Assembly (NCBI RefSeq): GCF_007990525.1
Contig: NZ_AP019823.1
Span: 744,001 to 808,000, forward strand
Length of the DNA stretch: 64,000 bases
Direction of reading: 5' to 3'
From: Leptotrichia hofstadii
GTDB lineage: Bacteria; Fusobacteriota; Fusobacteriia; Fusobacteriales; Leptotrichiaceae
In this document: positions 13,373-36,432 of the stretch, one piece after another
How the letters are laid out: each line of letters begins with the position of its first letter
Position numbering within the stretch: position 1 is the first letter of the stretch
Made by a program: the position numbers and the translations under genes
The notes under the pieces: generated by a model
Seen by the model: the letters and a program-made list of their open reading frames with translations, nothing else
Databases searched by the model: none
What the model was told of the DNA's origin: nothing

Positions 13373-15538
13373 ATGACAACTAAAAATTTTATTAATCAGA
13401 CAAATAGAACGATTCTATTTGAAGAAGTTAATCCAGAAAAAATGGATTTAATAACTTTGATTGATGATGCACGAGAGATGGATTCACTTGATGATGAAAG
13501 AATACTTGAAATTAATAAGCATTTGTTAGTAAGCAGTTTTGATGAATTTTTAGCAAAGTTTGAGCCAAAAGTTTACAGTTATTATAATGCGGAAACTCAA
13601 AGTATAAAGTATATTTTGAAAAAGCCTGAAGGAATACCAGAAGAACTGATAACTGAAATTAAAATTGATAACGGCAATACATTTTTTAAAATGTTAAATA
13701 CTCTTATTGAAGCTAGAAAATCACAAGGAAATAGAAACGTAGACTTCAAATTTGAAAATATTTTAGAGTTAATATCTCCAAAAAAAGTAATTGAAGATAT
13801 AAAACAGACAAGAAAAGAAATTGCATATGTATATAATAAATACGAGGAACTTGATGATGAAAATCCTAAAAAATTGGAATTAGGAGATAAACTTAATGAA
13901 AAGTTTGAAGAGGCTTCAAAAAATTATAGTAATGTTTTAGGAATGCTTCCGCTAGCTATTGAAGATATAAAAACAAGACTTCTTATTGGACATGATGAAA
14001 ATAATGCAAAATCTGAAAAGATTAAATTGGGAATGCTTCAAGTTGGAGATAAGGGAGAACTTGAAGTTATAGAATACAAACAGGAAGAATCAAGAGCATT
14101 AACTTTAGTAGAGGAAAAACATACGACAGAATTAGTTGAAGCGTTTAGAGATGATTATGAAAGTATTTCAGAAGAACCAAACCAATACATAAGTGATTTA
14201 GTTGTAAGAACATTTGTACCTTTAGCAAAAGGAATTGTCGAAATTGATCCAGTGCAGGAAGTTGAAAATTATAATAATTACTTGGTTTTTTATAAATCAG
14301 CTCAGGAAGATTTTGTAAAAATTGCAAAACCATTGATAGAAAAATTGTTAGGTATAAAAATGTTCTTTGAACAGTATGATACTAAAGTGTCGTTAATGAA
14401 ACCAACATTATTAATAACAAATATAAAACCTGAAATGATTGTTAAAGCTGGAAACAAAGAAAGATTGCAGGCATTCTTAAATACAGTCAATGCGAAAAAT
14501 GATTTTGACAATACAATTTGGTTTGGAATATATCCAAATGTGGATTTAGATGTGGAAAAAGGTAAAAAGAAAGTAAGAGAAAGATTTAAAGGAACTAAGG
14601 CTGAAGAGAAAATTGAAAAGAATACAATAGAAACTTTAACAAACCTGATGACAGTTTTAGGTAAATATAAAATACAAGTATTTTTTAATTTTGAAGGAAC
14701 TTATGAAACATCATTTGATAATTTGGCAACTATGGGTGTTGATAAATACATAGAAAAAACTAAAATTCTTGAGGATCAACCTTATTCAGAATATCTAATA
14801 CCTTCAATTCCCAATTTTACAATAATACCAAAAGATAAATCTGGTGTAGTGCTAGATTTTAAAATGAAGTATCAAGAAGAAGTTGGTGCTGAATTATCAA
14901 AAGACAAGGAAGATTTGTTGAAATTTTGGATAGAGGGAGTATATGTTGATTCTTCTTATGTTGCGGCAGGAATAACAGCAGCCAGTCAATGTCCTAATTT
15001 CTTAAAAGATAGATTCAAAAATGTATCACCAGTATATCCAGGAGTGAGATTTGATATAGAAGCTGAAGATAATTCATATAAAGCAAGAACTACTATGTCA
15101 AAAGAAATTTCAGGATTTACAAATACAATAAAAGATAGAATCAATCAGTTTAATTACGGATTCATATTTTCATCTGATTCTGCACATATGCAAAAAGAAA
15201 AAATAAAAAATATTGTTGTTTATAAGGCAAGAACTTTAGCAAGAAATCCAGAAGGAACTTATGAATCATTGTATAAAACTTTAACAACAACATTTATTGA
15301 AAGAACTTTAAGATTTGTTACAACTGACTTTAAGGAAGATAAATTAAATATGTTCTTTAGTACAAATCCAGAAAGTCAAAAATCAATATGGACAAAAGAC
15401 TTAAAATTTGTAAATGGAATAATGCAAAAAGGTGATGACATTACACATACAATTGATGAAGAAAACGGGATATGTCAGTTAAATATAACATTTGCAGGAA
15501 ATGTTAAGAATTTGCAAGTTGAAATTAACAAAAACTAA
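13373..15538 (+). CDS. TssC-like contractile sheath protein (candidate, long form)
   Basis: The 721-residue soluble protein has no signal peptide. Its C-terminal third (about residues 495-715) resembles TssC/sheath proteins, notably VDSSYVAAGITAASQ near 524 followed by a P-x-F-L-K-D-R-F stretch, and a final beta-rich segment. The N-terminal half is acidic and helical with a possible coiled coil near 150-190, and may replace or include the TssB part, since no separate tssB is seen. The next gene encodes a tube-like protein, the usual sheath-tube order. The assignment rests on pattern and context; a structure prediction would be decisive. Confidence 0.6.
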   Translation: MTTKNFINQTNRTILFEEVNPEKMDLITLIDDAREMDSLDDERILEINKHLLVSSFDEFLAKFEPKVYSYYNAETQSIKYILKKPEGIPEELITEIKIDNGNTFFKMLNTLIEARKSQGNRNVDFKFENILELISPKKVIEDIKQTRKEIAYVYNKYEELDDENPKKLELGDKLNEKFEEASKNYSNVLGMLPLAIEDIKTRLLIGHDENNAKSEKIKLGMLQVGDKGELEVIEYKQEESRALTLVEEKHTTELVEAFRDDYESISEEPNQYISDLVVRTFVPLAKGIVEIDPVQEVENYNNYLVFYKSAQEDFVKIAKPLIEKLLGIKMFFEQYDTKVSLMKPTLLITNIKPEMIVKAGNKERLQAFLNTVNAKNDFDNTIWFGIYPNVDLDVEKGKKKVRERFKGTKAEEKIEKNTIETLTNLMTVLGKYKIQVFFNFEGTYETSFDNLATMGVDKYIEKTKILEDQPYSEYLIPSIPNFTIIPKDKSGVVLDFKMKYQEEVGAELSKDKEDLLKFWIEGVYVDSSYVAAGITAASQCPNFLKDRFKNVSPVYPGVRFDIEAEDNSYKARTTMSKEISGFTNTIKDRINQFNYGFIFSSDSAHMQKEKIKNIVVYKARTLARNPEGTYESLYKTLTTTFIERTLRFVTTDFKEDKLNMFFSTNPESQKSIWTKDLKFVNGIMQKGDDITHTIDEENGICQLNITFAGNVKNLQVEINKN

Positions 15539-15581: not shown

Positions 15582-16019
15582 ATGGGATTCAGATTAAACG
15601 TAAAAGGACAAGGAGAAGAAATTTTGTTAGAAAAGGAAAGTATCTTGGATGTTAAATTTCTTTCAGAATCACCTGATGATTCAAATGCAAGAGCAACTGA
15701 TTTAGGAATTATTCTTGAAATCAAAGGAAAAATTTTGGCAGCTGCAAATGGAGATGCCGAAGATGATACAAGAAAGGTTGCTCAATGGTCATTAGTACCT
15801 GCTGAATCTAGTGATGCGTACAGAACTGTGGCATTAGAAGTAATATCTGCAGGACAAATGGTAAGAAAAATTGATATGACAAATGCGTTTGTTGTTGATT
15901 ACGAAGAATCTTATGGAGATCAGGCAGGGACTGGAACATTCTCATTGAAAATCAAACAGAAAAAAGAGAAAGTTAAGGAAGTTGCAATTGAAGGTGGATA
16001 TGCTGCTCAGGAAGCATAA
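15582..16019 (+). CDS. Hcp-like inner tube protein (candidate)
   Basis: This 145-residue, mainly beta protein has the size and strand pattern of Hcp/tail-tube proteins, including the closing motif GTGTFSLKIKQ, which matches the last strands of Hcp-type tubes. AGGAGG precedes the ATG. It follows the sheath gene by 43 bases and is followed by a strong hairpin with a T run. It probably forms the stacked-ring tube propelled by the sheath. It is also homologous to the two ends of the protein encoded at 16910. Confidence 0.65.
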   Translation: MGFRLNVKGQGEEILLEKESILDVKFLSESPDDSNARATDLGIILEIKGKILAAANGDAEDDTRKVAQWSLVPAESSDAYRTVALEVISAGQMVRKIDMTNAFVVDYEESYGDQAGTGTFSLKIKQKKEKVKEVAIEGGYAAQEA

Positions 16020-16088: not shown

Positions 16089-16871
16089 ATGTTTATAAAT
16101 AAATATCCAGTTTTTAAAAAAGGGAATGTGCTGGAAAAGGAAGATTTAGATTTATTAAGGGATAATCCGCTCGAAGTGTTGAGCTTGATGTATTCTGATA
16201 AAAGTAATGGAATAATAAAAGGATTTGACTTGATACCTAATTATAGTGAAAGAATAGTGATAATTACAAAAGGAATGGCAAAATGTAATGGGGAACTTTT
16301 TTGGATGAAGGAAGATTATATATTTGATATGCCAAAACAAGAGGAACGGTATATATTAAAACTTAAATTAGTGTCAGATATAGAAGAAAGAAAATATTAT
16401 GTAAGGGAAGGACGTTTTGTGCTGGAACTTGGGGAAAATGTTAATGAAGATGAAATTGAGATAACAAGGTTTATCACAAGAGAAGGGGCTGAATTGAGAA
16501 ATGACTATCAAAATTTCAGGGATTTGAGAAGAGATTTTAATTTGATGGAAATTATAAATACAAAATATTCTTCAGCACATAAATGGGGAACTTTTCATCC
16601 ACATGTATTGAAACTATGGGGAAAGGAAGTTTCAAAAAAGGAAAATCTTGATATTTTTGATATAAATTTTTATGTAACTTGTCTACAGCAGGATGTTATA
16701 GAACGAGATGTCATAACTTCATATATAAATGCAAAACTTAATTTGACAGATGAAAATTATACAAATGAACAAATGTTTAGACATTTATTGACAATATTAG
16801 ATAATTTAGGAACAGAAAGAAAAAAAGTTGAGAAAAAACGAATAATACCTAGAAAAATAATAGTAGAATAA
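16089..16871 (+). CDS. Probable baseplate/adaptor protein (TssK or phage receptor-domain like)
   Basis: This is a 260-residue soluble protein. Residues about 30-110 have the alternating pattern of a beta-sandwich: a SNGIIKGFDLIPN segment, then IVIITKGMAKCNGELFWMKED, then an EERYILKLKLV strand. This recalls phage tail/baseplate proteins and the N-terminal shoulder of TssK. A charged helical C-terminus follows (NYTNEQMFRHLLTILDNL). GGAGGG precedes the ATG at 16089. It lies directly after the tube gene. The family is not certain; a role linking baseplate and tube is inference. Confidence 0.5.
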   Translation: MFINKYPVFKKGNVLEKEDLDLLRDNPLEVLSLMYSDKSNGIIKGFDLIPNYSERIVIITKGMAKCNGELFWMKEDYIFDMPKQEERYILKLKLVSDIEERKYYVREGRFVLELGENVNEDEIEITRFITREGAELRNDYQNFRDLRRDFNLMEIINTKYSSAHKWGTFHPHVLKLWGKEVSKKENLDIFDINFYVTCLQQDVIERDVITSYINAKLNLTDENYTNEQMFRHLLTILDNLGTERKKVEKKRIIPRKIIVE

Positions 16872-16909: not shown

Positions 16910-17803
16910 ATGAAATTTAGAGTAAGTATAGCTGGAGGAAATAACAATACATCAAATAATCCGTTCGGAGGTTTAGGCAACGTTTCAGTTCCAAGTGTAG
17001 CAATGAACTTTGTATCAAATGGAGAAAATAAAAATCCAATTTCAAATGCAATGGGAGGACTGACACAGCAAGGCGGAGTAATTCTTTCAAGTGATGAAAT
17101 ATTGGAAGTATCTTACAGTACAAACCCAATATATGGTGAAACGATGAGTGCTTCTCAAAGCCAAGTAACATTAAGAATTGTAGGAAGATTACTTCCCACA
17201 GCTTCAGAAAATAATAGTCCTGAAGATGAAGGTGAAGGGATAGTTAGCGGAATAATGGGAACACTTGGTATGGGAACATTATTTAACCAGTATAAAAGTG
17301 TAAAACACTTATTTGACAAAGATAATGAAGCAGGAGAAGAACTTCCAGAAGCCTCATTAAGCAGCAACCTCTTATCATCAAGCGGAATTACTGAATCAGT
17401 CGCAAAAAAAACAAAAGAAAGCAGTAAAAGTAAACTTGTTTCTCAAGTATTAGGAGTAAGTTCAGCACTGCCAATGACAAATTCGTTTACAAATGGAATA
17501 GGAAACAGCCTGAAAGGAATGTTCGGAGGACTTGGAAATTTCGGAGAAAGCAATTTATATGATCAAAATAAGCAGAATGTGAAAGAATTATCATTGTGGG
17601 CAATGACTTACGGAGATGAAAAATCAACTAGGGATGTAATGGTGCAGACAGATTTAGGGGGAGGAAAGACGTTTGAATTGTATTTTCCTAAAATGTATGT
17701 GGATAGTTTTAATCAGGATTTTAGTGTTAGAAGTGGAGAAGGTACTTTTGAATTATTATTAAGTCAAACAGTATTTAATGAAGAAAATATTAACCTAAGA
17801 TAG
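16910..17803 (+). CDS. Hcp-fold protein with a large internal insertion
   Basis: The product has 297 residues. Residues about 55-95 (SDEILEVSYSTNP, then VTLRIVGRLLP) align with the N-terminal strands of the tube protein at 15582, and residues about 230-290 (ELSLWAMTYGDEKSTRDV, then VRSGEGTFELLLSQ) align with its C-terminal half. Between them sit about 125 residues rich in Gly, Ser, Asn and Leu, and a Gly/Asn-rich leader precedes the first part. It is probably a specialised tube, cap or cargo-carrying Hcp. AGGAGGA precedes the ATG. Its 3' third is duplicated at 19815-20197. Confidence 0.6.
   Translation: MKFRVSIAGGNNNTSNNPFGGLGNVSVPSVAMNFVSNGENKNPISNAMGGLTQQGGVILSSDEILEVSYSTNPIYGETMSASQSQVTLRIVGRLLPTASENNSPEDEGEGIVSGIMGTLGMGTLFNQYKSVKHLFDKDNEAGEELPEASLSSNLLSSSGITESVAKKTKESSKSKLVSQVLGVSSALPMTNSFTNGIGNSLKGMFGGLGNFGESNLYDQNKQNVKELSLWAMTYGDEKSTRDVMVQTDLGGGKTFELYFPKMYVDSFNQDFSVRSGEGTFELLLSQTVFNEENINLR
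17418..17803 (+). repeat. Hcp-like gene 3' end, duplicated at about 19817-20197
   Basis: The two copies agree closely from AGCAGTAAAAG to the C-terminal strand and diverge only near the last 15 codons. The second copy is joined on its left to a J-domain gene start. Confidence 0.85.
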
Positions 17804-17818: not shown

Positions 17819-18550
17819 ATGATTCAAACAATTATTATGGGTCAGATAGCAAAAATATCATTTGAAGTATCATACAGTATTAAACTAGCAAGATCAGGAG
17901 CTTATGAAAGGGCATTGGATACTTTGAAATCAGCAGATATAATTCATGGAATAATAATTCTTATGGTTAAAGGGAAAAAAATGTTAAAAGGTGATATGGG
18001 AGCTTTATTGAGAAAATATTCTGATTCTAAATTTGCTAAATTATATATAATGGCAGAATTATTTAAAGAATTTAGAGGAATTTTTGTAATTGAAAATCCG
18101 ATTGATAGTGGAAAAAATTATATGAATGAAGCATTATATATAGATAAAAAATTTCCAAAAGAATATAAAAGAATAATGGGATTAACTATAGTAATAGACG
18201 GATTTAAAAAATTAGATACACAAGTAAAAAATGTTTTTATTTTAAATTATAAGGATAATAAAAATAGAAATAAAGCCTCAGGATTTTATCCTTTTAATGA
18301 CAGGCATCAAAAGTTACATATTGATTTAACTCATAATGGCTCATTTGATTTTGGGAATACAAACTTAAGAGCAGATATAAAGAAGCAGAGAATAACAAGA
18401 AAAAATGGAAAAACTATCATAGAATATGATTACAATGTATATATGTATGATTATTTTGAAAAACCTCTTGGAGATACAAAACCTGATTTTGGAAGAAGAT
18501 ATATAATGAGAACAACTCCTATTCCTAGAACAGGAAAAGTTATTATATAG
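17819..18550 (+). CDS. Unknown protein, candidate effector of the Hcp-like cassette
   Basis: The 243-residue, strongly basic protein starts 15 bases after the Hcp-like gene, with AAGGAAG at good spacing. The N-terminal third is helical and moderately hydrophobic (ADIIHGIIILMVKGKK). The C-terminal part is beta-rich with many aromatic and charged residues: FYPFNDRHQKLHIDL, then IEYDYNVYMYDYFEKPL. I do not recognise a family. Position after an Hcp-type gene and before small membrane proteins is that of an effector with membrane-located immunity; the YDYF region weakly recalls DUF3289-type effectors. Function is inference. Confidence 0.55.
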   Translation: MIQTIIMGQIAKISFEVSYSIKLARSGAYERALDTLKSADIIHGIIILMVKGKKMLKGDMGALLRKYSDSKFAKLYIMAELFKEFRGIFVIENPIDSGKNYMNEALYIDKKFPKEYKRIMGLTIVIDGFKKLDTQVKNVFILNYKDNKNRNKASGFYPFNDRHQKLHIDLTHNGSFDFGNTNLRADIKKQRITRKNGKTIIEYDYNVYMYDYFEKPLGDTKPDFGRRYIMRTTPIPRTGKVII

Positions 18551-18580
18551 AATAATAAAACTATAACGTAGGGAGTAAAA

Positions 18581-19033
18581 ATGGTAAATTTTTTAAAAAA
18601 ATATAAATTTGATTTAATAATATTATTTTATATTCAATGTGTACAAAGTTTATTGATATTTTATGAAAACAAATATAATAAGATAATAGAAATAATATTA
18701 ATTCTATTATTGTTTTTCTTTGTAAGGAAAAAAATAACTTATTACTATAAAATATTATTTTATGAAATAATAACAATGTTAATTGAATATTTTTATTTTT
18801 ATAATTATCCTTTTAAAAAAGAATTTATGGCACTTATTGTAATTATAATACTTGTTGAGATAAAATATAAATATATAAAAAAAGTTTTCAGTCAAGGAAA
18901 AGAAATGATAATAAATTGCATAATTTTTTTGTTTATTGCGTATATTATAAAATATGGATTTAAAATACTTGTAATGTTAACGGTAGCTTTAGTCTATTCT
19001 ATTTATATGTTTTTTAATGGAGGGATAAAATGA
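18581..19033 (+). CDS. Polytopic membrane protein, candidate immunity protein
   Basis: The 150-residue protein is nearly all hydrophobic, with about five membrane helices separated by short lysine-rich loops. GGGAG precedes the ATG. It follows the candidate effector by 30 bases and overlaps the next small gene by an ATGA junction, so the two are coupled. No family is recognised. A membrane-embedded immunity role is inferred from position. Confidence 0.6.
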   Translation: MVNFLKKYKFDLIILFYIQCVQSLLIFYENKYNKIIEIILILLLFFFVRKKITYYYKILFYEIITMLIEYFYFYNYPFKKEFMALIVIIILVEIKYKYIKKVFSQGKEMIINCIIFLFIAYIIKYGFKILVMLTVALVYSIYMFFNGGIK

Positions 19034-19158
19034 TAAAAAGATTAAAAAAATTTATACTAGTTTTATTAATTTGTGCGTTAGGTTTAATAATTTTAAATTA
19101 TATTACAACTAAAATACTCTTAAAAAATGGAAGGGTAGAGCAAAATGAAAATAGATAA
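19030..19158 (+). CDS. Small single-span membrane protein
   Basis: This 42-residue ORF starts with the ATG inside the ATGA overlap with the preceding stop, and GGAGGG stands at 19020-19024. The product begins MIKRLKKF and continues with one long hydrophobic helix, then a polar tail. It overlaps the start of the next gene (ATG at 19145) by 14 bases. Two overlaps in a row and a good ribosome binding site support expression despite the short length. Function unknown. Confidence 0.5.
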   Translation: MIKRLKKFILVLLICALGLIILNYITTKILLKNGRVEQNENR

Positions 19159-19660
19159 GTATGTAGATGTTCTTGAAACTATGATTGTAAGTTTAACAAT
19201 TGCTTTTTTTAATGATTTTTTTTCTGAAATATTAGAAGTGTTATTCCTAAAAAAAAATATACGAGAAATTACAGTATTAGGAATTTATATTATAATTTAT
19301 ATTTTTACCGAATTTTATAGAAAAAAAAATAAAAATATTGTTGAATATTATTATAAATTATTAATATTTCAAGTTTCAGGTTCAATATTGCTTTATTTTT
19401 TTTCTTATTCTGAGTTATTGTTATTTAAAAAAGAATCATTCATAACATTTATAATTTTATTTATAATTTCAGAATTAAGATTTAAAGTAAGTTATAAGTT
19501 TTTAAAAAATTTTAATTTAGAAAAAAATGCACTGTATTTATTATATTTTTGTTTAATGATATTTGTAGTAAGAGTTATATTTTTTCTTGTTATTAACACA
19601 GAACTTATATTTAATCAAAGATATGATATTATAGAATCTTTTAAATTATTAAAAAGATAA
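19145..19660 (+). CDS. Polytopic membrane protein, candidate immunity protein
   Basis: This is a 171-residue hydrophobic protein with four to five predicted membrane segments and basic loops. It is translationally overlapped by the small gene before it. In size and composition it resembles the product of 18581 but shows no clear residue-by-residue match. It closes the first copy of the duplicated cassette and is followed by a J-domain gene fragment. No family recognised. Confidence 0.55.
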   Translation: MKIDKYVDVLETMIVSLTIAFFNDFFSEILEVLFLKKNIREITVLGIYIIIYIFTEFYRKKNKNIVEYYYKLLIFQVSGSILLYFFSYSELLLFKKESFITFIILFIISELRFKVSYKFLKNFNLEKNALYLLYFCLMIFVVRVIFFLVINTELIFNQRYDIIESFKLLKR

Positions 19661-19766
19661 AATTATGAAAGAAAAAAAATATTATACTTAATGTTACAAT
19701 TTATAATAATAAAATAATGAAAGTTTGTAAAAAAATATAAAAAGTTATTATGACAGGAGAGAGCAA

Positions 19767-19847
19767 ATGACAGATTATTATAAAATACTAGGTGTTTCAG
19801 AAGATGCTGATGCAGCAGTAAAAGCAAACTTGTTTCTGAAGTTTTAG
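19767..19847 (+). pseudogene. 5' fragment of a J-domain (dnaJ-like) gene
   Basis: The fragment begins MTDYYKIL and continues with GVSEDADA, almost the same as the start of the J-domain gene at 21103. After about 47 bases it joins, out of frame, sequence belonging to the Hcp-like gene and stops after 26 residues. It has its own GGAGAG ribosome binding site. It is the left half of a tandem-duplication junction. Confidence 0.85.
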
Positions 19848-20197
19848 GAGTAAGCTCAACACTGCCAATGACAAATTCATTTACAAATGGAACAGGAAAC
19901 AGCCTGAAAGGAATGTTTGGAGGGCTTGGAAATTTTGGAGAAAGCAATTTATATGATCAAAATAAGCAGAATGTGAAAGAGCTATCATTGTGGGCGATGA
20001 CTTACGGAGATGAAAAATCAACTAGGGATGTAATGGTTCAGACAGATTTAGGGGGAAGAAAGACGTTTGAATTGTATTTTCCTAAAATGTATGTGGATAG
20101 TTTTAATCAAAGTTTTAGTGTTAGAGGTGGAGAAGGATATTTTGTTTTAAATTTAAAACAAACAGGATTTAATGAGGATGGAATAAATTTAAAATAG
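19815..20197 (+). pseudogene. 3' fragment of the Hcp-fold insertion gene (second copy)
   Basis: From about 19817 the sequence matches 17418-17803 with few differences. It encodes the last part of the insertion and the C-terminal Hcp-like strands (ELSLWAMTYGDEKSTRDV and the end strand). The N-terminal half is absent. Possible internal starts exist (ATG at 19868), but no good ribosome binding site supports them. This is a displaced tail of the kind often left by recombination in polymorphic toxin loci. Confidence 0.8.
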
Positions 20198-20206
20198 GGT
20201 GAGAAT

Positions 20207-21073
20207 ATGAAAAAAAACATATACAATACATTGTATATAATTACGTTAATTAGAAATATACAATTGCTTTTTAATAGTTATTCAAATACTTTAACAGGAT
20301 TTTGGTTACTAATAAATTTAATTTTATCTTTTATATTTTTTACTAAAATTTTTACTAGAAAAGAAAAATTCAATGAATATTTTGTAGTTTTTATATTTGG
20401 ATTTACATGTTTGTTAATAAATTATTCAAGTTTTAAGGATTGGAATAAAAAATTTAATACATATATTTTAATTATTTTGATAATATTAACTTTATTCGAA
20501 TTTATAATTATCGTAAAACCTTTTATAAAAATAAAAGATTTTAGAAAAATATTTTTATTAATATTGAGTTTTTTTTGTGGGAAATTATTTTTATATTTTT
20601 TAACAAATTTTTATATGGAACCAAGAAAAATTGTATATAGCACAGATATTATTTATACAAAGAATAATAAGGAGTTAAGAAAAATAATAGAAAAAATGCC
20701 AATGGTTAATGAAGTAGAGATAATTGAAAAAGATGCAATAAATCCTTATAGTTCTTATTATGAAAATGAAGGGAGTCTAAAAGATTTAGATGAAATTATT
20801 AATGTTCAAATTAAAAATTCTATTGATAATGAAAGTATGGATTTATTAGCAAATAGAATAAAAGAATTTGTAAAATTACAAGATAAAGAAAAAAAATTTA
20901 TAAAAATATATTTTACAAGTAAAAATGGTTATTACGAAGCATTAAAAATATATGATTTAAAAAATAACGAATTAAAACAAATTTATGTAAGTAAAAATTT
21001 ACAAGTATCAGAAAGTCTTGGTTTTGTTTTGTTAAACATGTATGTAAAAATGTTAAAAGGTAATGAATTTTAA
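20207..21073 (+). CDS. Membrane protein with soluble C-terminal domain, cassette gene
   Basis: In this 288-residue protein the first 145 residues contain about five membrane helices. The remaining 140 form a polar domain with KNNKELRKIIEKMPMVNEVE and a lysine-rich beta/alpha pattern. It starts nine bases after the duplicated Hcp-like tail, with GGTGAG upstream. It occupies the slot between the Hcp tail and the J-domain gene that the 17819-19660 genes occupy in the other copy. An immunity role is possible but unproven. Confidence 0.6.
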   Translation: MKKNIYNTLYIITLIRNIQLLFNSYSNTLTGFWLLINLILSFIFFTKIFTRKEKFNEYFVVFIFGFTCLLINYSSFKDWNKKFNTYILIILIILTLFEFIIIVKPFIKIKDFRKIFLLILSFFCGKLFLYFLTNFYMEPRKIVYSTDIIYTKNNKELRKIIEKMPMVNEVEIIEKDAINPYSSYYENEGSLKDLDEIINVQIKNSIDNESMDLLANRIKEFVKLQDKEKKFIKIYFTSKNGYYEALKIYDLKNNELKQIYVSKNLQVSESLGFVLLNMYVKMLKGNEF

Positions 21074-21102: not shown

Positions 21103-21567
21103 ATGACAGATTATTATAAAATACTAGATGTTTTAGAAGATGCTGATGCAAAAGAGATAAAGGTAAAATATAGAAAATTGGCTATGAAGTATCATCCAGA
21201 CAGGAATCCTGATGATAAGAAAGCTGAAGAAATGTTTAAGGCAATCAGCGAGGCGTATGAAATACTTGGAGATGAGAATAAAAGAAAAGAATACGATGAG
21301 AAGAGGAAGAATAAGGGAAATGCTGGAAGTCAAAGATTTGGTGAGAAGAAATCAAGCAGGGCAGAGCAGAACAGTGAATCAGCTAAAAGAGGGGCTGAAG
21401 CATTTTTCCGTAATTTTTCAGCAAATCCAAATGATATAAAGAACATGTTTGAAAGTGCTTTTGATGTGAATAATATGAGCAGTTCTGATAAGGATAAAAT
21501 GAGGGAACATAAAAAAAGCATGGAACAAAGTTTTGAAAACTTTTTTAAGCCTAAAAAGAATAAATAA
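21103..21567 (+). CDS. J-domain co-chaperone
   Basis: The 154-residue protein has an N-terminal J domain: [20 protein letters not shown], the HPD triad at residues 31-33, and [16 protein letters not shown]. The J domain stimulates Hsp70 ATPases. The remaining part is Gln/Ser/Lys-rich and lacks the G/F and zinc-finger regions of DnaJ, so it is a dedicated class C type J protein. The natural partner in this locus is the Hsp70-like ATPase at 60252. It may help assemble or recycle sheath or effector proteins (inference). Confidence 0.85.
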
Positions 21568-21644: not shown

Positions 21645-21872
21645 ATGCTTTGGAGAATAAAAAGTTTTTTCAGTAGAATTAGAAGTCGAATTTTTAATGT
21701 ATTTTCTGGAAGAAGCAGTTTATATCGAGTTGAAAGTTTGAGAAGAGGTGCGACTTCAACTTCAAAAAAGAAAAAGAAAATGCTTCAATGTCGGTTGATA
21801 AGGGAATTAGAAAATATGAAAAAAGACAGATGGCTGCCAGAGGGGAAAGACAGTACAACTTTTTTAATTTAA
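21645..21872 (+). CDS. Basic N-terminal part of the adjacent FHA protein, possibly frameshifted
   Basis: The 75-residue frame starts at a well-placed AAAGGAAATAATAAAATG and encodes an amphipathic arginine-rich leader (MLWRIKSFFSRIRSRIFNVF) and a lysine run coded by CAAAAAAGAAAAAGAAAATG. The following FHA gene begins inside this frame at 21788 without a good ribosome binding site. The simplest reading is one longer gene with a one-base change in the A-rich tract. If both are separate, this encodes a short basic peptide. Confidence 0.45.
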   Translation: MLWRIKSFFSRIRSRIFNVFSGRSSLYRVESLRRGATSTSKKKKKMLQCRLIRELENMKKDRWLPEGKDSTTFLI

Positions 21873-22459
21873 AAAATATAATAATTTTGATTATACTATT
21901 TTTTACTTTTGTGTATATTCATATGGCTGGATATTCTGTGAAAAGTCTATATATCGCAATTTTTATATTTATAGCACTAACATTGTATCTTCTTATAGTA
22001 GAAAGATTTAAGGAAAGAGTGGAAGTGCATGATGAGATAAAGGAAATAAAGCATGAGCGTGAAAGAGAACATCACGTATTTTTGGATAAAGTAAAAGAAA
22101 TAGAGGAAGTTGAAAAGAATCAAATTGAAAATATAATTTTAAAAAATTCAGATGACTATGATATCAAAGTATGGAAGATTGGAAGAGCATCTTCATTGCT
22201 GATAGGGAAAAGAACGCCTAGAAACAAGGTGGATATAGACGTGAGTGAAGGAGTATATTCAAATTTGGTAAGCAGGGCTCATGGAATGTTGAACAGAGTA
22301 AATGGAGTTTGGTACTATGAAGATTTAGGTTCACAAAATGGAAGTGGAATAGAAAAGAAAGATGACAGAAGAAAAATAAAATTAAAAAGAAATGTACCTG
22401 TAAAGGTTGAAAGCGGAGATATAATATACTTAGCGACAACAAAAATACTATTGAAATAG
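21788..22459 (+). CDS. Membrane-anchored FHA domain protein
   Basis: The product has 223 residues as read. Two close hydrophobic helices (about residues 29-70) are followed by a charged coiled coil and a C-terminal forkhead-associated domain: WKIGRASSLLIG, LVSRAHGMLN, and YYEDLGSQNGSGI, containing the conserved GR, SxxH and NG positions that bind phosphothreonine. In type VI systems an FHA protein transmits kinase signals to the machine; the kinase at 53037 is the obvious partner. The start may truly lie at 21645. Confidence 0.8.
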   Translation: MSVDKGIRKYEKRQMAARGERQYNFFNLKNIIILIILFFTFVYIHMAGYSVKSLYIAIFIFIALTLYLLIVERFKERVEVHDEIKEIKHEREREHHVFLDKVKEIEEVEKNQIENIILKNSDDYDIKVWKIGRASSLLIGKRTPRNKVDIDVSEGVYSNLVSRAHGMLNRVNGVWYYEDLGSQNGSGIEKKDDRRKIKLKRNVPVKVESGDIIYLATTKILLK

Positions 22460-22486: not shown

Positions 22487-24271
22487 ATGGAGAATAATTT
22501 AAATAATCAGAAACCAGTGGAATTTTTTTCAGCTGAAAGAATAAAGATAGAAATAGATGGACAGCAGATACTTTGGAGAGATATGAATCTTGAAATAGAT
22601 TCAAAAATAGGGGAACATACGATTGGAAAAATAAAATACGTGGCATCACCGAACCAGTTAAGTTTATACGATGCCCTGATAGATAAAAAAGGCGACAAGA
22701 CAATAGTAGTTACCGGAAGAAGCAACATATCGGATGAAGCAGGAAATGCTACAGATAAAATATTCTTAAATGGAGTGATAAGTAAACTTAGGATGAGGGA
22801 AACAAAGGCAGGAGCATTGGCAGTTGAGTTAGTGTGCAGTTCAAAGAGCATACTTCTTGACAGAATACCAAGATACCGTTCATTTCAGGATCCGACACTT
22901 ACGTATAAAGACATAGCGCAGGAAGTGAATAAAAATTATAATGATGGGGAAACATTGGTAAATGTAGGGGAAGATATGAAAGAAGTTCCAAGAATGACAA
23001 TCCAGTATAACGAAACAGACTGGGAATACTTAAAGAGAATAGCATCGTATACAGGACAGCCACTAATGGCAAATTCAAATAAAGTTCTGGTAGGATTTTT
23101 CAAGAATATGCCAGCACAGACACCAAACTTGACATATTCATATTTTGGAAAGGAAACAGAGGAAGAAAGAACATATTACAGGGTAGAAGGGACAGAAGTG
23201 TATTCGGTATCAACACCGATAAAGTTAAAAATCAGAAACAAAGTATCAGGAGAAGAAGTAGAAAATGACTACTATGTAATAGAAAGCAGAATATACAATG
23301 AAGGAAACACTTTAAAATGCGAATACAAGCTAGGAAAACAGACAGACTACTTTGTAGATCCAATACCGCACGAAAAGATAAGAGGAGCAGTGATAGAAGC
23401 TAGAACAGTACATATTGCAAGAACAGATGAAAGCAAGAGTGAGCATGGAAGGACTGATGGAAGTTCGGATAATCTTGAAGGTAGAACTATGGGAATAAAG
23501 CCTGTAAATATCTATGTTGCTGAAGAACAGGAAAAAAATAATAACAGAAGTCAGGAAGTGAAGGCAAGCGATATTGCAGTTATGACAGTTGACTTGACAG
23601 AAGGGCTGAGAAAACTTGGAGGAGCAGTGCAAAGTGAAGCAGATAAATATGCTGGAAAAAGTTATTTCCCATATGTAACTCCATACAGTCAGACAAATAC
23701 AGGATTTACGCCTGCACCAGAGCCAAATGACAGAGTAGCGCTTTATTTTCCAAGTGAAAACGAAACGCATGCTTTGGTAATGGGAGCGGTAAATAATAAT
23801 GGTAATGGGAGATTTACTAATCCAGATAAAAGGAACTTTACATTAGGACCAAGTCAGGCGGCTAGAGGAGGAACACCTGCGAACGAAGGGAAACCGATGT
23901 ATAATTTTACTTTGGATAGTGAGAAGTTTATTGTCAGTGTTGGTAGTATAATCAGTTTAAGTTCAAGTGGCACAGTTAGCATAACAGGGACTTCAAATGT
24001 GGATATTGCTTCAACAGGAGCGAATGCGACGTTAAGCGCAGGGCAGAATATAGATATTACTGCAAATCAGGATGCAACGGTAACGGCTTCATCTGGAATT
24101 GCAACATTGAGTGGAAATACATATGCTAATGTAAAAGGAAATCAAAATGCAGAAATTGTTGGTGGGCATAATACAAATGTGGGATTAGGTGGTGGAAAAT
24201 CTTCAAATAAAACGATTGTTGTTGGAAGTTCAAAAGTGGAAGTAAAAAGTGGAGAGGTAGAAATAAATTAG
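22487..24271 (+). CDS. vgrG: VgrG-like spike protein 1
   Basis: The 594-residue protein has a gp27-like N-terminal part with the conserved DRIPRYRSFQDPTLTY and TIQYNETDWEYLKRIA segments near residues 125-190, the late-control-gene-D/VgrG pattern. It then has a gp5-like OB fold near 360-440 (YVTPYSQTNTGFTPAPEPND). The tail (about 470-594) is Gly/Ser/Asn-rich with short beta repeats such as VDIAST and AEIVGG, expected to form the spike needle. The C-terminal type containing GTPANEGKPMYNFTLDSEKF is shared with copy 2 only. It heads cassette 1: partner gene, HINT-nuclease, immunity genes. Confidence 0.92.
   Translation: MENNLNNQKPVEFFSAERIKIEIDGQQILWRDMNLEIDSKIGEHTIGKIKYVASPNQLSLYDALIDKKGDKTIVVTGRSNISDEAGNATDKIFLNGVISKLRMRETKAGALAVELVCSSKSILLDRIPRYRSFQDPTLTYKDIAQEVNKNYNDGETLVNVGEDMKEVPRMTIQYNETDWEYLKRIASYTGQPLMANSNKVLVGFFKNMPAQTPNLTYSYFGKETEEERTYYRVEGTEVYSVSTPIKLKIRNKVSGEEVENDYYVIESRIYNEGNTLKCEYKLGKQTDYFVDPIPHEKIRGAVIEARTVHIARTDESKSEHGRTDGSSDNLEGRTMGIKPVNIYVAEEQEKNNNRSQEVKASDIAVMTVDLTEGLRKLGGAVQSEADKYAGKSYFPYVTPYSQTNTGFTPAPEPNDRVALYFPSENETHALVMGAVNNNGNGRFTNPDKRNFTLGPSQAARGGTPANEGKPMYNFTLDSEKFIVSVGSIISLSSSGTVSITGTSNVDIASTGANATLSAGQNIDITANQDATVTASSGIATLSGNTYANVKGNQNAEIVGGHNTNVGLGGGKSSNKTIVVGSSKVEVKSGEVEIN
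23330..23960 (+). repeat. vgrG 1 3' segment shared with vgrG 2 (second copy about 34738-35360)
   Basis: The codons for the VDPIPHEKIRGAVIEA region through the LDSEKFIVSVGS region are strongly conserved, with only scattered mostly silent changes. After this point the two spike tails are unrelated in detail. The block marks the shared C-terminal subtype A. Confidence 0.75.
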
Positions 24272-24290: not shown

Positions 24291-25181
24291 ATGTTTAAAA
24301 ATAATTATACATTGAAATATAATTTAAGAGAGAAGGATAAAATAAACTATAAGATAAACTCCAAAATAGAGTATGAAAATTTAATTGTAAAATCGGAAAA
24401 AGAATATGAATACAAAATAGAATTTCAACCTCTCTCAAAGGGAATTCAGAATGATTTTATAATTAGAAATACGAGGTATGACCTTAAAAATTTTAATGAT
24501 AAAGAAAGTGATTTGGAAAAGATTTCTTTTGAAATAGATAAAACTTTTTTAGAAACAGATTATAGAATTGATAAAAAAGGAAAAATTATAAAAATAGAAA
24601 ATCTATCAAAATTAAAAACAGATTGGTATAATAAAAAAAATGAAATTTTGAGAAAGTATGAGGAGCAGTATGAAGAAATACAAGATTTAGTAGATGGAAT
24701 AACTAAAATTTTAAATAATTCAGATACAGTAGTTCAATATTTTCAAAATTATGGAGTTAATGGTATATTTTTTAGTGAGTTGTACGGAGAATTATATATT
24801 GAAGATAATGAGAAAAAGAAAAAAATATCAATACCTAATTTTATAACATTTTTTCCTTTACCATTAACGTTAAATATTATAACAAAAAAAATAAATAAAA
24901 TGGAAGACGAGATGTCTTTAATAATACATGGTAAATTAGATGAAATGCGGTTAGATAAACTGAATATAGAAGAGATGGTAAAGGCTAATTTACCAGAAGA
25001 AGACATAAGAGGGTTAAAATATGAAGTTGAATATGAGCAAGATGTTTCTTTTTATTTGATAACTGGATTAGTAAAAAATTGTAATCAAATAATAGAAGTA
25101 AAGATTTACAACAAACTGGACAATAAGGAATTATTTAAAAATCGAATAGAGGTTAAACTAGAAGAAATTAAGGAGGAATAA
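24291..25181 (+). CDS. VgrG-PAAR cassette partner protein 1 (candidate effector adaptor)
   Basis: This is a 296-residue, acidic/lysine-rich soluble protein with no signal peptide. A beta-rich N-terminus is followed by a helical region (LKTDWYNKKNEILRKYEEQY) and a beta-rich C-terminus. No known family is recognised. It sits exactly between vgrG and a DUF4280 effector, where other type VI systems encode adaptors such as Eag/DUF1795 or Tap/DUF4123, and its stop overlaps the effector start (TAATG). The equivalent slot is filled in the other three cassettes by proteins of similar size and outline. Confidence 0.6.
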   Translation: MFKNNYTLKYNLREKDKINYKINSKIEYENLIVKSEKEYEYKIEFQPLSKGIQNDFIIRNTRYDLKNFNDKESDLEKISFEIDKTFLETDYRIDKKGKIIKIENLSKLKTDWYNKKNEILRKYEEQYEEIQDLVDGITKILNNSDTVVQYFQNYGVNGIFFSELYGELYIEDNEKKKKISIPNFITFFPLPLTLNIITKKINKMEDEMSLIIHGKLDEMRLDKLNIEEMVKANLPEEDIRGLKYEVEYEQDVSFYLITGLVKNCNQIIEVKIYNKLDNKELFKNRIEVKLEEIKEE

Positions 25182-26890
25182 TGGGAAGCAAGAGATATAT
25201 TCCTCAAGGTGCAATACTGATATGTGACAAGGGAAGAGACATGACACATTTGAGAGTAACGCATAATAATAATGTTAACTTGTATAAAGTTCCTTATGCA
25301 AATGAATTTGATAGAGTACCTGAAGAGAATATACCAAATTTTAAGAAATGTGAAGTTTGTGGAAATTGTCAAATGGATTTATTAGAATGGTCTCCAGTCC
25401 ATGAAAGTGTAAAAATAGGTGGAGGAAAACTGATACATGAGGACTCAAGACTGAAATGTAAAAAGGGCGGAGAGATAAAAATATACCTGAATGAGAATGA
25501 GGCGAAAGAAGCTTTAAAACAAACAGCCTATAATAAATTGAGCTGGCAAGAAAAAGCCAAAAGAGTGGACTGGGGAACAGTAGGAAAAACATTAGCTACA
25601 GGATTGGTAGTGGCAGCAGTAGGTGCGGTATTATTTGCGACAGGAGGAGCTATAGTAGCGGCAGGAGTAGGAATATTAACAGCAAAGTGTGCGGCAGTAG
25701 GTGTGGTAGTAGAACTAGCAGGGCTTGCAATAAAAGGCTATGCGATGTACCAGACAGTTAAGGGGGTATATGAGACCTACAAAAGAATGGAGGCTGCAAA
25801 CTGGGACATAGAGGAGGGGCTAGTAGTTCTGGCAGAACATATAGGCTCAGCGGCAGGAGCATTAGTAGGCGGAGCAATAGGAAATAAAATAGGAGGTATG
25901 CTATCCGATAAAATATATGCCAAAAGTTCAACATATCAAAAGATGAAAAATGGAACATTATGTTTTATAGCAGGAACGCTTGTATCAACAAGACTAGGAA
26001 GAAAACGAATAGAGAAAATAGAGAAAGGAGATGAGGTATATAGCTATGATGAACTGACAGGTCAGAAAGTACTGAGAAAAGTAAGAGATGTACATGAGCA
26101 TATAACAGACACCTTCGTAAGAATAAAAACGAAGACAGAAGAAATACTGACAACTCCAGAACACCCATTCTACGTGAAGGGAAGGTATATATTAGCAGGT
26201 TTCTTGAGTGTAGGAATGAGCCTGACAAGTTTTGCAGGAGAACAGATAGAAATACAGGAAACAGAAATAATAAGGTACGAGAAACCCCAAAAAGTATATA
26301 ATTTCAGCATAGAGGGTACAGAAAATTACTATGTTGGAGAGCAAGGAGTGCTGGTACATAATGCAGGAGGTTGTCCTTCAGGGAATGAGGTTAAGAAGAA
26401 GAATACAGAGACAGATGATCATATAGTGAAAGAAAATGGAAAAAAAGCATTAGCCAAAAATGCGGAATATACCAAAAATGGATATGATTATAAAACAGAC
26501 AAATTAGGAAGAATAAAAGAAGCAAAAGCTTCGGAATTAAGATTGGAGAAAGGAGAAAGAAATTTATACAGTCAAAGAACAGTTGGTGGAACAGATAGAT
26601 TAAAAGATATTGATGATGGAGGACATTTATTCGGGACACAATTTGGTGGTTCAGGAGATATAGATAACATGTTACCGCAAAATAGTAAAATAAATAGAGC
26701 AGGTGGAGAATGGTATAAAATGGAGCAAGAATGGGCTAATGCATTAAAAGAAACACCACCTAAAAAAGTTTCAGTGAAAATAAATCCTATTTATGAAGGA
26801 AAAAGTATGAGACCAACTAAAATAAAAGTTAAGTATAAAATTGGTAATGAAATAAAATTTAGAACAATACCAAATCCTGAAACGATATAA
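25181..26890 (+). CDS. DUF4280 (PAAR-like) effector with HINT domain and NS-type nuclease toxin
   Basis: The 569-residue polymorphic toxin has, in order: a cysteine-containing DUF4280/PAAR-like tip (residues 1-105, with CEVCGNC and LKCKKGGEI); Gly/Ala-rich hydrophobic helices (about 130-200); a HINT self-cleaving domain from Cys261 (CFIAGTLVSTRLGRKRIEKI) to His393-Asn394; and a C-terminal nuclease with DDGGHLFGTQFGG near 478-490 and an NxxxN region, matching the Endonuclea_NS_2 family. HINT cleavage should release the nuclease in the target cell. Same-family nucleases are carried by B. subtilis YeeF, whose immunity protein YezG belongs to the family encoded next door. Confidence 0.88.
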   Translation: MGSKRYIPQGAILICDKGRDMTHLRVTHNNNVNLYKVPYANEFDRVPEENIPNFKKCEVCGNCQMDLLEWSPVHESVKIGGGKLIHEDSRLKCKKGGEIKIYLNENEAKEALKQTAYNKLSWQEKAKRVDWGTVGKTLATGLVVAAVGAVLFATGGAIVAAGVGILTAKCAAVGVVVELAGLAIKGYAMYQTVKGVYETYKRMEAANWDIEEGLVVLAEHIGSAAGALVGGAIGNKIGGMLSDKIYAKSSTYQKMKNGTLCFIAGTLVSTRLGRKRIEKIEKGDEVYSYDELTGQKVLRKVRDVHEHITDTFVRIKTKTEEILTTPEHPFYVKGRYILAGFLSVGMSLTSFAGEQIEIQETEIIRYEKPQKVYNFSIEGTENYYVGEQGVLVHNAGGCPSGNEVKKKNTETDDHIVKENGKKALAKNAEYTKNGYDYKTDKLGRIKEAKASELRLEKGERNLYSQRTVGGTDRLKDIDDGGHLFGTQFGGSGDIDNMLPQNSKINRAGGEWYKMEQEWANALKETPPKKVSVKINPIYEGKSMRPTKIKVKYKIGNEIKFRTIPNPETI

Positions 26891-26922: not shown

Positions 26923-27435
26923 ATGAAAAAAGAATGGCAAGAAGAATTTTTAGAAAAACAAAATGAGTTAATAAGAGCGATAGCACAACAGGTAAGCAAT
27001 ACAATACCAGATACTTGGGAGAAATTTTATTTTCATGCAGATATAAATGATGATTTTAGTGGGGGAGTATATTTTTTCTTTAATACAGAAAAAGATAAAA
27101 AATTAAATTATTCGCATGATATACCTGAAATATATAACATAAATGAAGATGAATACGATGAAAAATACGATAAATTATATGATTTGTCTGTGGATTTAAA
27201 ACAATTATTTATAGATTGCGAACAAGAACCTTGGCAGGCGATAACAATAATAGTTGATGAAAAAGGATCATTGAAAATGGATTATGATTATGCAGACTGG
27301 TTAAGTAGTCCATATACTCCGACACCATTGATGAACTATTTTAAGTACAAGTATTTGGGGAAAATACCTAAAGATAAGGAAGAAGAAAAATTATTTAAGG
27401 AAATGGAGGAATATCAGAGTAAATTTAATAAGTAG
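26923..27435 (+). CDS. DUF600/YezG-family immunity protein
   Basis: This 170-residue acidic protein matches the YezG/DUF600 pattern: an N-terminal helix with WEKFYFHADIND, a central GGVYFFFN strand, an INEDEYDEKYDKLYDLS helix, and a late QEPWQAITIIVDEKG strand followed by YDYADW. YezG-type proteins bind and block NS-type nuclease toxins. Its place directly after the nuclease toxin makes it the cognate immunity protein with good probability. GGGAG precedes the ATG. Confidence 0.8.
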   Translation: MKKEWQEEFLEKQNELIRAIAQQVSNTIPDTWEKFYFHADINDDFSGGVYFFFNTEKDKKLNYSHDIPEIYNINEDEYDEKYDKLYDLSVDLKQLFIDCEQEPWQAITIIVDEKGSLKMDYDYADWLSSPYTPTPLMNYFKYKYLGKIPKDKEEEKLFKEMEEYQSKFNK

Positions 27436-27447
27436 TGAGGAAATAAA

Positions 27448-27996
27448 ATGTTAAGAGATTTTAAAAAAGAAAAAGAAATGCCAACAGAAATTATTGAAAA
27501 ATATAAAGGGCAAGTGCCAGATGAAATTATAGAAATTTGGAAAAATTATGGATTGGGAAGTTTTTTGAATGGGTATTTAAGAGTGATAAATCCAGATGAT
27601 TATAAAGAATTAGTAGAAGAGACTTACTTTAGAGGAAAAGAGTCGATACCTTTATTTGTAACGGCTTTTGCAGATGTAATAACATGGCAAGAAAATAGAT
27701 ATATTGGAATAATTTTTTATAAGGAGGAGGACTTTGATATAATGGCTTCTGGAATGGACTTCTTTTTTTCAGATATATATACTGAAGAGAGCTTTAGAAA
27801 AGAGTTTTTTGATTTAAAACTATATGAAAAAGCTGTAAAAAAATATGGAGAATTAGAATATAATCAAAGTTTTTGTTTTGTTCCATTGTTAGGATTAGGC
27901 GGGAAGAAAAGCATTGATAATTTAGATAAAGGGGATACTTTGACACATATTTACTTGATTACGGAACTTGTGGGAAAAGTGGGAATAGATGATTAG
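27448..27996 (+). CDS. GAD-like/DUF1851 (Tdi1-type) immunity protein
   Basis: The 182-residue product has an N-terminal segment VPDEIIEIWKNYGLGSFLNGYLRVINPDDY that is typical of the GAD-like domain. The C-terminal part has a DUF1851 pattern, including CFVPLLGLGGKKSIDNLDKG. Proteins of this composition protect against type VI DNases such as Tde1. The toxin in front belongs to another nuclease family and already has a YezG-type partner, so this may be an orphan immunity gene kept against rivals. It starts 12 bases after the preceding gene. Confidence 0.8.
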   Translation: MLRDFKKEKEMPTEIIEKYKGQVPDEIIEIWKNYGLGSFLNGYLRVINPDDYKELVEETYFRGKESIPLFVTAFADVITWQENRYIGIIFYKEEDFDIMASGMDFFFSDIYTEESFRKEFFDLKLYEKAVKKYGELEYNQSFCFVPLLGLGGKKSIDNLDKGDTLTHIYLITELVGKVGIDD

Positions 27997-33881: not shown

Positions 33882-35729
33882 ATGATTGAAATGAATGATA
33901 ATTTAAATAACCAAAAACCAGTGGAATTTTTTTCAGCAGAAAGAATAAAAATAGAAATTGATGGACAGCAGATACTTTGGAGAGATATGAAACTGGAAAT
34001 TGATTCGAGGATAGGGAAACATACGATTGGGAAAATAAAGTATATTGGTTCAGCAAACCAGTTAAGTTTATACGATGCCTTGATAGACAGGAAAGGGGAT
34101 AAGGAGATAAAAATACTAGGAAGAAGTAATATTGCTGATAATACTGGAAATTCAACAGAAAAAATATTTCTAAATGGAGTAATAAATGAGTTGCAAATAA
34201 ACGAAACAACAGCAGGAGCTTTGACAGTGGAAATTACTGCAATTTCAAAAAGTGTTCTTTTGGATAGAATACCGAGATACCGTTCGTTTCAAGATCCAAC
34301 ATTAACTTATTCAGCGATAGCGGAGGAAATAAATGGAAATTATGGTACAAATGATGGAAAAATTGTAAATGTTGGTGAAGATATGCAGGCAGTACCAAGA
34401 ATGACAATTCAGTATAACGAAACAGACTGGGGATATTTGAAAAGAATAGCCTCATATACAGGACAGCCAGTAATGGCATACTCAGACAAGGTATTTGTAG
34501 GATTTTTCAAGAATATGCCAGCACAGATACCAAACTTAAAGTATTCTCAATTTGGGAAAAGAACAAAAGAAGAGAGAACATATTTTAAAATAACAGGGAC
34601 AGAAGTATATCCAGTGGCAACACCAATAAAATTAAAGACTAGAAACAGAGTATCAGGAGAAGAAGTTGAAAATGATTACTATGTCCTTGAAAATAAAATT
34701 TATAACGAAGGAAATACGTTAAAATGTGAATACATACTTGGAAAGCAGACAGATTACTTTGTAGATCCGATACCACACGAAAAGATAAGAGGAGCAGTAA
34801 TAGAGGCAAGAACAGTACATATTGCAAGAACAGATGAGAGCAAGAGTGAGCATGGAAGGACTGACGGAAGTTCGGATAACCTTGAGGGCAGAACTATGGG
34901 AATAAAGCCTGTGAATATCTATGTTGCCGAAGAACAGGAAAAAAACAATAATAGAAGTCAGGAAGTAAAAGCAAGCGATATTGCAGTTATGACAGTTGAT
35001 TTAACAGAAGGGCTGAGAAAACTGGGAGGAGCAGTGCAAAGTGAAGCAGATAAATACGCAGGAAAAAGCTATTTTCCATATGTAACACCATATAGCCAAA
35101 CAAACACAGGATTTACACCAGCACCAGAAGCAAATGACAGAGTAGCACTTTATTTTCCAAGTGAAAATGAAACGCATGCTTTGGTAATGGGAGCGGTAAA
35201 TAATAATGGTAATGGGAGATTTACTAATCCTGATAAAAGGAACTTTACATTAGGGCCAAGTCAGGCGGCTAGAGGAGGAACACCTGCGAATGAAGGGAAA
35301 CCGATGTATAATTTTACTTTGGATAGTGAGAAGTTTATTGTTAGTGTTGGGAGTATTATTAGTCTTAATTCTTCTGGAACAGTTGGGATTACTGGAGTAA
35401 AAAATGTTGGAATTACATCTTCAGCCGCTTCAATTGATATAAATGCAAAACAGAATATAAGTGAGACAGCAGATCAGAATGTAGTGATAACAGCAAGCAA
35501 CGGTATGGCAAAGATGAGTGCAAATACATATGCAACAGTTATTTCTTCGCAAGATGCAGAAATATCGGGAAGTAATAGTACTAATGTAGGGTTTAGTGCA
35601 GGTAAAAAATCAGTAACAACAACTATAAGAGGAGATACTTTGACAGCTGAACCTACAGATGAAGGGACATTTGGTAGTGCAGGTGCGTTGGTTACTGTTG
35701 TTGGAAGTGATGTGAAGATAAATGGATAA
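33882..35729 (+). CDS. vgrG: VgrG-like spike protein 2 (recombinant of two vgrG types)
   Basis: The 615-residue product has the same gp27/gp5 layout as the other copies. Residues up to about 320 match VgrG 4 almost exactly, while residues from about 320 to 490 match VgrG 1, including the GTPANEGKPMYNFTLDSEKF tail type. The last 120 residues are unique Ala/Ser/Thr-rich spike repeats. AAGGAG precedes ATG 33882; an ATG at 33891 is possible. It overlaps the next gene by eight bases and heads cassette 2. Confidence 0.92.
   Translation: MIEMNDNLNNQKPVEFFSAERIKIEIDGQQILWRDMKLEIDSRIGKHTIGKIKYIGSANQLSLYDALIDRKGDKEIKILGRSNIADNTGNSTEKIFLNGVINELQINETTAGALTVEITAISKSVLLDRIPRYRSFQDPTLTYSAIAEEINGNYGTNDGKIVNVGEDMQAVPRMTIQYNETDWGYLKRIASYTGQPVMAYSDKVFVGFFKNMPAQIPNLKYSQFGKRTKEERTYFKITGTEVYPVATPIKLKTRNRVSGEEVENDYYVLENKIYNEGNTLKCEYILGKQTDYFVDPIPHEKIRGAVIEARTVHIARTDESKSEHGRTDGSSDNLEGRTMGIKPVNIYVAEEQEKNNNRSQEVKASDIAVMTVDLTEGLRKLGGAVQSEADKYAGKSYFPYVTPYSQTNTGFTPAPEANDRVALYFPSENETHALVMGAVNNNGNGRFTNPDKRNFTLGPSQAARGGTPANEGKPMYNFTLDSEKFIVSVGSIISLNSSGTVGITGVKNVGITSSAASIDINAKQNISETADQNVVITASNGMAKMSANTYATVISSQDAEISGSNSTNVGFSAGKKSVTTTIRGDTLTAEPTDEGTFGSAGALVTVVGSDVKING
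34112..34396 (+). repeat. vgrG 2 segment identical to vgrG 4 (second copy 54168-54452)
   Basis: Read by eye, the two stretches of about 285 bases agree at every position, including third codon positions, and lie 20,056 bases apart in the same direction. Similarity continues on both sides with scattered differences. Identity at silent sites suggests recent gene conversion or unequal crossing-over. Confidence 0.85.
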
Positions 35730-36429: not shown

Positions 36430-36432
36430 AAA

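Follow-up and report, generated by a model that had tools for sequence, protein, structure and literature searches.

Positions 19767-20197 of a 64,000-nucleotide stretch of Leptotrichia hofstadii DNA (referred to here as the window, part of a 2.6-Mb genome) are, in all probability, the boundary of a displaced cassette within the payload region of a contractile injection system. The element is best explained by one old and nearly homology-free founding join, followed by the exchange of cassettes, and it would now contain a passive orphan tail. The placement in the genus Leptotrichia agrees with a gene, from a genome assigned to the same genus, that is 100% identical to one in L. hongkongensis JMUB5056. 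The junction lies inside the operon for the injection system. Comparison of the related loci establishes, on sequence grounds, a single shared founding junction, two cargo slots, cassette exchange, linkage between the tail and the cargo, and decay of the soluble genes in the displaced slot.

The fused junction and its distribution

The first 16 codons of a J-domain gene are repeated at 19767-19814 on the forward strand, where 46 of 48 nt are identical to 21103-21150. The next-best place for this 48-mer in the whole window matches at 29 of 48 nt. The repeat is followed at 19814-20197 (forward strand) by the displaced tail of an Hcp-like gene, a gene fragment that continues in frame to its stop codon. 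The alignment of this tail to 17420-17803 is ungapped, with an identity of 94% over the first 300 nt and 91.5% over 365 nt. At the join, the J-domain sequence extends to GATGCTGATGCA and the Hcp sequence begins with GCAGTAAAAG, with at most 1 bp shared between them. A 25-mer spanning the junction was found once, with zero matches expected by chance.

The same junction, at the same nucleotide, was found at four places in 3 of the 13 Leptotrichia genomes that were compared, representing three species. The genome of the window contains two of these loci (G000a in the window and G000b elsewhere), and the others are denoted as G002 and G009. No other copy was found among the 13 genomes, even with 3 mismatches allowed; 10 other species are without it. 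An assembly artifact was rejected, since the junction is identical at four loci in three genomes that were assembled separately.

The first-pass annotation described the element as 47 bases of the J-domain start followed by a copy of 17418-17803. Both copies were confirmed, but the final 78 nt of the orphan tail are just 74% identical to the Hcp tail of the same strain. Over these nucleotides, the identity to the orphan tail that precedes the same cargo in G009 is 96%. The segment at 19814-20197 is therefore not simply a copy of 17418-17803, because its last 78 nt match tails that precede this cargo in other species.

At the four loci, the order of Hcp tail, cargo, and J-domain start occurs twice, head to tail. 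Slot 1 of the window encodes a 243-aa soluble protein, the putative effector, that is the first gene product after the Hcp-like gene (17819-18550). It is followed by membrane proteins of 150 aa (18581-19033, about five transmembrane segments) and 171 aa (19145-19660, also with transmembrane segments), both of which are putative immunity proteins. The 243-aa protein has no transmembrane segment and matched no family above the cutoff. Slot 2 contains only a 288-aa membrane protein, c2 (20207-21073), a putative orphan immunity protein by virtue of its pairing with a partner elsewhere. All four genes are on the forward strand. The cargos of the two slots (17819-19660 and 20207-21073) are unrelated to one another, in agreement with the initial observation that the genes between the repeats differ.

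In G000b, slot 1 contains a homologue of c2 and a 236-aa protein, and slot 2 contains an LRR lipoprotein and a Tae4 amidase. In G002, slot 1 encodes proteins of 229, 144, and 158 aa, and slot 2 contains the LRR lipoprotein with a frameshifted Tae4. The first slot of G009 encodes a 192-aa membrane protein and a 272-aa soluble protein, and its second slot contains c2 alone. Three other genomes do not have the junction. G001 has one slot, with the order Hcp, c2, a 183-aa protein, and J; G010 has neither an Hcp-like gene nor cargo at the corresponding place; and in G003 the Hcp-like gene has decayed (GTG start), with the same tail end and cargo as in G002. A third cargo slot, between the main tube gene and the gene for a 260-aa protein, was observed in G000b and G002 (L012 and L013) and encodes a membrane protein of about 220 aa and a 238-aa family protein. 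It is absent from the window locus.

The flanking genes are mostly 93-98% identical between loci, whereas the cargo does not align. The locus in G002 is 93-97% identical to that in the window, compared with about 76% for a housekeeping gene, and the locus must therefore have moved horizontally between species. The single-slot form and the different genes in the slots of relatives support cassette exchange. The junction is not fixed among relatives with unchanged neighbors; it occurs in 3 of 13 genomes with differing genes on both sides.

Cassette exchange and the putative effectors

The last 26 codons and the stop of the Hcp-like gene (17723-17803, forward strand) are hypervariable and move with the cargo. 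Over these 26 codons, loci with the same cargo are 85% identical and those with different cargo are 72% identical (permutation p = 0.0019), and for the last 13 codons the values are 92% and 75% (p = 0.0003). These tests cover few loci (nine to ten tails) that are related by ancestry, which the p-values ignore. The 90 codons upstream of the hypervariable end exhibited no link with the cargo in the same nine to ten tails (permutation p = 0.62). Since the tail end is linked to the cargo and the tail body is not, the cassette can be assigned as the last 13-26 Hcp codons plus the cargo, with the conserved tail body serving as the crossover zone.

A PHI-type test for recombination with the 125 tail codons returned p-values of 0.0002-0.0012. 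The same test on the 92-codon tail body alone was not significant (p = 0.69-0.86), and thus some of the homoplasy within the body could be due to repeated mutation. The J-start alleles and the slot-2 cargos occur in all four combinations: MTDYY with c2 in G000a, MTDYY with LRR in G002, MINYY with LRR in G000b, and MINYY with c2 in G009. Crossovers therefore fall within the orphan tail. The orphan and working tails do not form separate lineages, with identities of 93.1% between orphan tails, 93.8% between working tails, and 93.5% between the two groups.

In this family, most sets of cargo combine a soluble protein with membrane or lipoprotein genes. The Tae4 amidase in slot 2 of G000b was identified by its match to PF14113 (1.9e-16). 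Tae4 amidases are a known type VI effector family. Genes of the c2 family are paired with a soluble protein of 183-236 aa in G001, in G000b, and in another genus (G092), where the pair is found behind an Hcp-like gene. This partner is absent from the window locus and from G009. In G092 and G009, an Hcp-like gene precedes a second cargo family (a membrane protein of about 200 aa and a protein of 240-270 aa), so that in G092 an Hcp-like gene is followed by the same two cargo families. The gene layout, the membrane topology, and the one Tae4 match suggest that the membrane proteins function in immunity and that the soluble proteins are effectors.

In three of four loci, the displaced slot either lacks its soluble partner (G000a and G009) or contains it in a frameshifted form (G002), and the presumed immunity gene has been kept. 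The soluble partner is intact in five of five slots that are proximal to Hcp or are the only slot (Fisher p = 0.048, again for few loci and with ancestry ignored). The initial proposal that the locus stockpiles immunity or cargo genes beside a displaced C-terminus is largely upheld, in the form of swappable cassettes whose presumed immunity genes are retained next to the displaced Hcp C-terminus.

Two further observations pertain to these gene families. At 4178-7055 of L053, from another genus, the pair of membrane protein and putative effector occurs as a tandem duplication in which the second effector has been shortened to 152 aa. Solitary genes of the c2 family are embedded among housekeeping genes in two Leptotrichia genomes (5550-6452 of L055 and 5133-6035 of L056). 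They lie outside any injection locus and are candidates for orphan immunity genes.

The injection-system operon

The operon contains, in order, genes for the sheath (13373), the main tube protein (15582), the 260-aa protein (16089), the 297-aa Hcp-like protein (16910), the cargo, the J-domain protein (21103), an FHA-domain protein, VgrG (22487), and a PAAR-like HINT nuclease toxin (25181). All are encoded on the forward strand. The sheath protein (13373-15538, 721 aa) is 82% identical to that of L. hongkongensis and 55-60% identical to the sheaths from Paenibacillus, Brevibacillus, Lysinibacillus, and Clostridium.

The main tube protein (15582-16019, 145 aa) has a weak Pfam match to TssD and is predicted to adopt an Hcp-like fold. 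Its AlphaFold model has a pLDDT of 77.5, and the top match in the PDB is Hcp1 (6bdc, E = 6.9e-6). The 260-aa protein of unknown function (16089-16871) is a core neighbor that was found in all of the Leptotrichia loci compared. The accessory Hcp-like protein (16910-17803, 297 aa), which heads the payload cassettes, was related to the tube family by profile-profile comparison (probability 99.4, E = 2.5e-21), with an insertion of about 100 residues. A sequence search of the PDB with the Hcp-like profile returned chance matches only, and the wider family returned weak, unrelated matches. The single-sequence fold of this protein was useless (pLDDT 33), and the assignment as Hcp-like consequently rests on the profile comparison and on the fold of the related main tube protein.

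The J-domain protein (21103-21567; Pfam DnaJ, 8.4e-27) forms the right-hand boundary of the slots. Comparison with other loci indicates that the reading frame of the FHA-domain gene (21645-22459) is broken in the window. It is a single 271-aa frame in G000b, G001, and G009, and the frame change in the window occurs at an A-rich stretch; this could mark a pseudogene or a slippage site, or it could be an error of sequencing. The VgrG-like spike protein (22487-24271; Phage_GPD, 3.1e-7) and the toxin with DUF4280 (PAAR-like), PT-HINT, and Endonuclea_NS_2 domains (25181-26890) complete the series. Following the toxin, 26923-27996 contains a YezG-like immunity gene and then a Tdi1/GAD-like immunity gene without an adjoining toxin, a possible second immunity stockpile. 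Further downstream, 33882-39348 contains a second VgrG and a second DUF4280-HINT toxin protein.

The sheath, the Hcp-fold tube, VgrG, and the PAAR-like spike are all present, but this set is common to contractile injection systems generally. No match to TssL/DotU (PF09850) was found in the whole genome, whereas the E. coli control was detected, and the system is therefore not a canonical type VI secretion system. It is a T6SS-like contractile injection system of a type common to Leptotrichia and many Firmicutes. In Firmicutes, such systems have the order sheath, tube, and DnaJ, in some cases followed by FHA. They resemble this locus in the sheath (at the identities given above), in the tube (40-61%), and in the J-domain gene that follows the tube gene in many loci. 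However, neither the Hcp-like gene nor its cargo nor the gene for the 260-aa protein was matched in the Firmicutes loci that were retrieved. PHROGs returned nothing for five core proteins, and a scan of named genomes with the Hcp-like family found no relatives. The viral contigs searched with the Hcp-like family and the junction gave no match, nor did the phage records, and these collections gave no indication of a phage element.

Formation of the two slots and comparison with known systems

In the explanation that we favor, the payload cassette would be composed of the last ~26 codons of the accessory Hcp-like tube protein, the effector gene, and the immunity gene or genes. A single old recombination with almost no homology would have fused the J-domain gene, at its codon 16, with the Hcp-like gene at nt ~511. 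The join has at most 1 bp of microhomology, and thus the founding event was illegitimate. The outcome would be an active slot behind the complete Hcp-like gene and a displaced slot behind the orphan tail. Homologous recombination within the conserved Hcp tail, now present as two direct repeats of 375 bp, has subsequently swapped cassettes between strains, as shown by the tail-cargo linkage, the four allele combinations, and the mosaic tails, and perhaps also between slots. We read the founding junction as having arisen once and then spread. In the displaced slot, the effector tends to decay and the presumed immunity gene remains, which would offer protection from kin that still use the old effector.

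The founding event itself may be described differently. There is close to an even chance that a foreign segment of Hcp tail, cargo, and J-domain gene was added in one step. As in the proposal for Vibrio cholerae, this would be a homology-facilitated illegitimate recombination, homologous at the J-domain gene and illegitimate at J codon 16. The end of the orphan tail is of another cassette type than that of the resident, the locus has moved between species, and the join has almost no microhomology, all of which favor such an acquisition. However, one-step addition cannot be told apart from a tandem duplication followed by swaps, since both slots have been exchanged in the meantime. It is compatible with the favored explanation, the sole difference being the description of the founding event.

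Were the two tails to recombine with each other, slot 1 would be lost and the stored cassette, with its own tail, would return to a position behind an intact, in-frame Hcp gene. It is considerably more doubtful that the orphan tail acts as a standing switch, by which regular tail-tail recombination in the population drops slot 1, reattaches the stored cassette, and changes the toxin that is fired. In this reading, the Hcp C-terminus would be a loading surface specific to the cargo and would have to move with its effector.

Still less probable is a functional role for the orphan tail or for the 26-codon, frame-shifted reading frame that spans the junction (19767-19847, forward strand) as a regulator, a translated leader, or a small Hcp-tail protein. 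A GGAG/GGGAG-like sequence in 19740-19766, before the ATG, has been kept in all four J-start copies despite their differing surroundings, a hint that the 26-codon frame might be translated. The amino acid changes in the orphan tails are also few. Relative to the nearest complete Hcp gene, the changes are mainly silent, with 5, 2, 1, and 1 nonsilent codons compared with the 9.2, 5.7, 10.6, and 11.3 expected if neutral. Against such a role, the orphan tail in G000b contains a nonsense codon (Q219*), the tail has no start codon with a well-spaced ribosome site, and the 26-codon frame ends at the same stop just past the join in all four loci. Mainly silent changes together with a nonsense codon would be expected of, and are most simply read as, an untranslated tail that has been repeatedly replaced with sequence from working Hcp genes. 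The orphan tail is probably not translated as part of Hcp and would function as a passive homology arm.

A plain tandem duplication of the resident interval from Hcp tail to J-domain start, with cargos that then diverged by point mutation and no exchange between strains, would account for the head-to-tail layout and for a junction typical of illegitimate duplication, but it has almost no standing against two unrelated cargos, conserved flanks around cargo that cannot be aligned, and all four combinations of J-start and slot-2 cargo. This cross-species comparison leaves only the founding step as something that could still be a tandem duplication. Of the two fates proposed in the first-pass annotation for the duplicated interval, swapping is largely borne out, and divergence by mutation alone is rejected. 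Its proposal of unequal recombination agrees with the doubled head-to-tail layout, but the junction is common to several species and was not made in this strain, and homologous crossing-over across the tail repeats came only after the illegitimate founding event.

Two known systems resemble the arrangement in Leptotrichia. In the displacement of Rhs C-termini (Jackson et al. 2009, PMC2935791) and in orphan rhs-CT/rhsI pairs (Koskiniemi et al. 2014, PMC3967940), a conserved core fragment, a variable C-terminus, and an immunity gene are displaced downstream of an intact gene, and the orphan lacks start signals. For the orphan Rhs toxins of Salmonella, there is experimental support for recombination between the main and orphan cores that reattaches the tip (PMC3967940). 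In Leptotrichia, however, it is the end of an Hcp-like tube protein, and not a toxin domain, that has been displaced. The effector has a gene of its own, the right-hand boundary is formed by the start of a DnaJ gene, and the host is a fusobacterium. Only the last ~26 Hcp-like codons vary, and there is no variable toxin domain fused to the carrier. The array is not of the strict Rhs type, because the carrier protein itself holds no toxin.

The effector-immunity modules of the Vibrio cholerae T6SS undergo sequential displacement, in which a new module is inserted, the old effector is lost, and the old immunity gene is kept downstream, and the arrays are moved by homologous recombination (Kirchberger et al. 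2017, PMC5361080). There, a variable 3' end is described for vgrG-3, whereas in Leptotrichia the cargo travels with the end of the accessory Hcp-like gene, and the slots are divided by a fused junction common to the loci. The features of a displaced-cassette array are found here: a 375-nt in-frame Hcp tail before slot 2 at four loci, differing cassettes at the same position in relatives, and an orphan, putative immunity gene that is kept when the effector is lost or broken. The Leptotrichia array works like the displacement of Rhs C-termini and like the immunity arrays of Vibrio.

A full-text search of open papers did not find a description of this system in Leptotrichia, in its phylum, or in this type of injection system. 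The locus points to a process in oral Leptotrichia in which a weapon is added and the antidote is kept, and the piece of the carrier that moves is the end of a tube protein, unlike in the known cases of Rhs and VgrG. The linkage of the last ~26 Hcp-like codons to the cargo leads to a testable hypothesis, namely, that the tube protein may recognize a particular effector through this segment.
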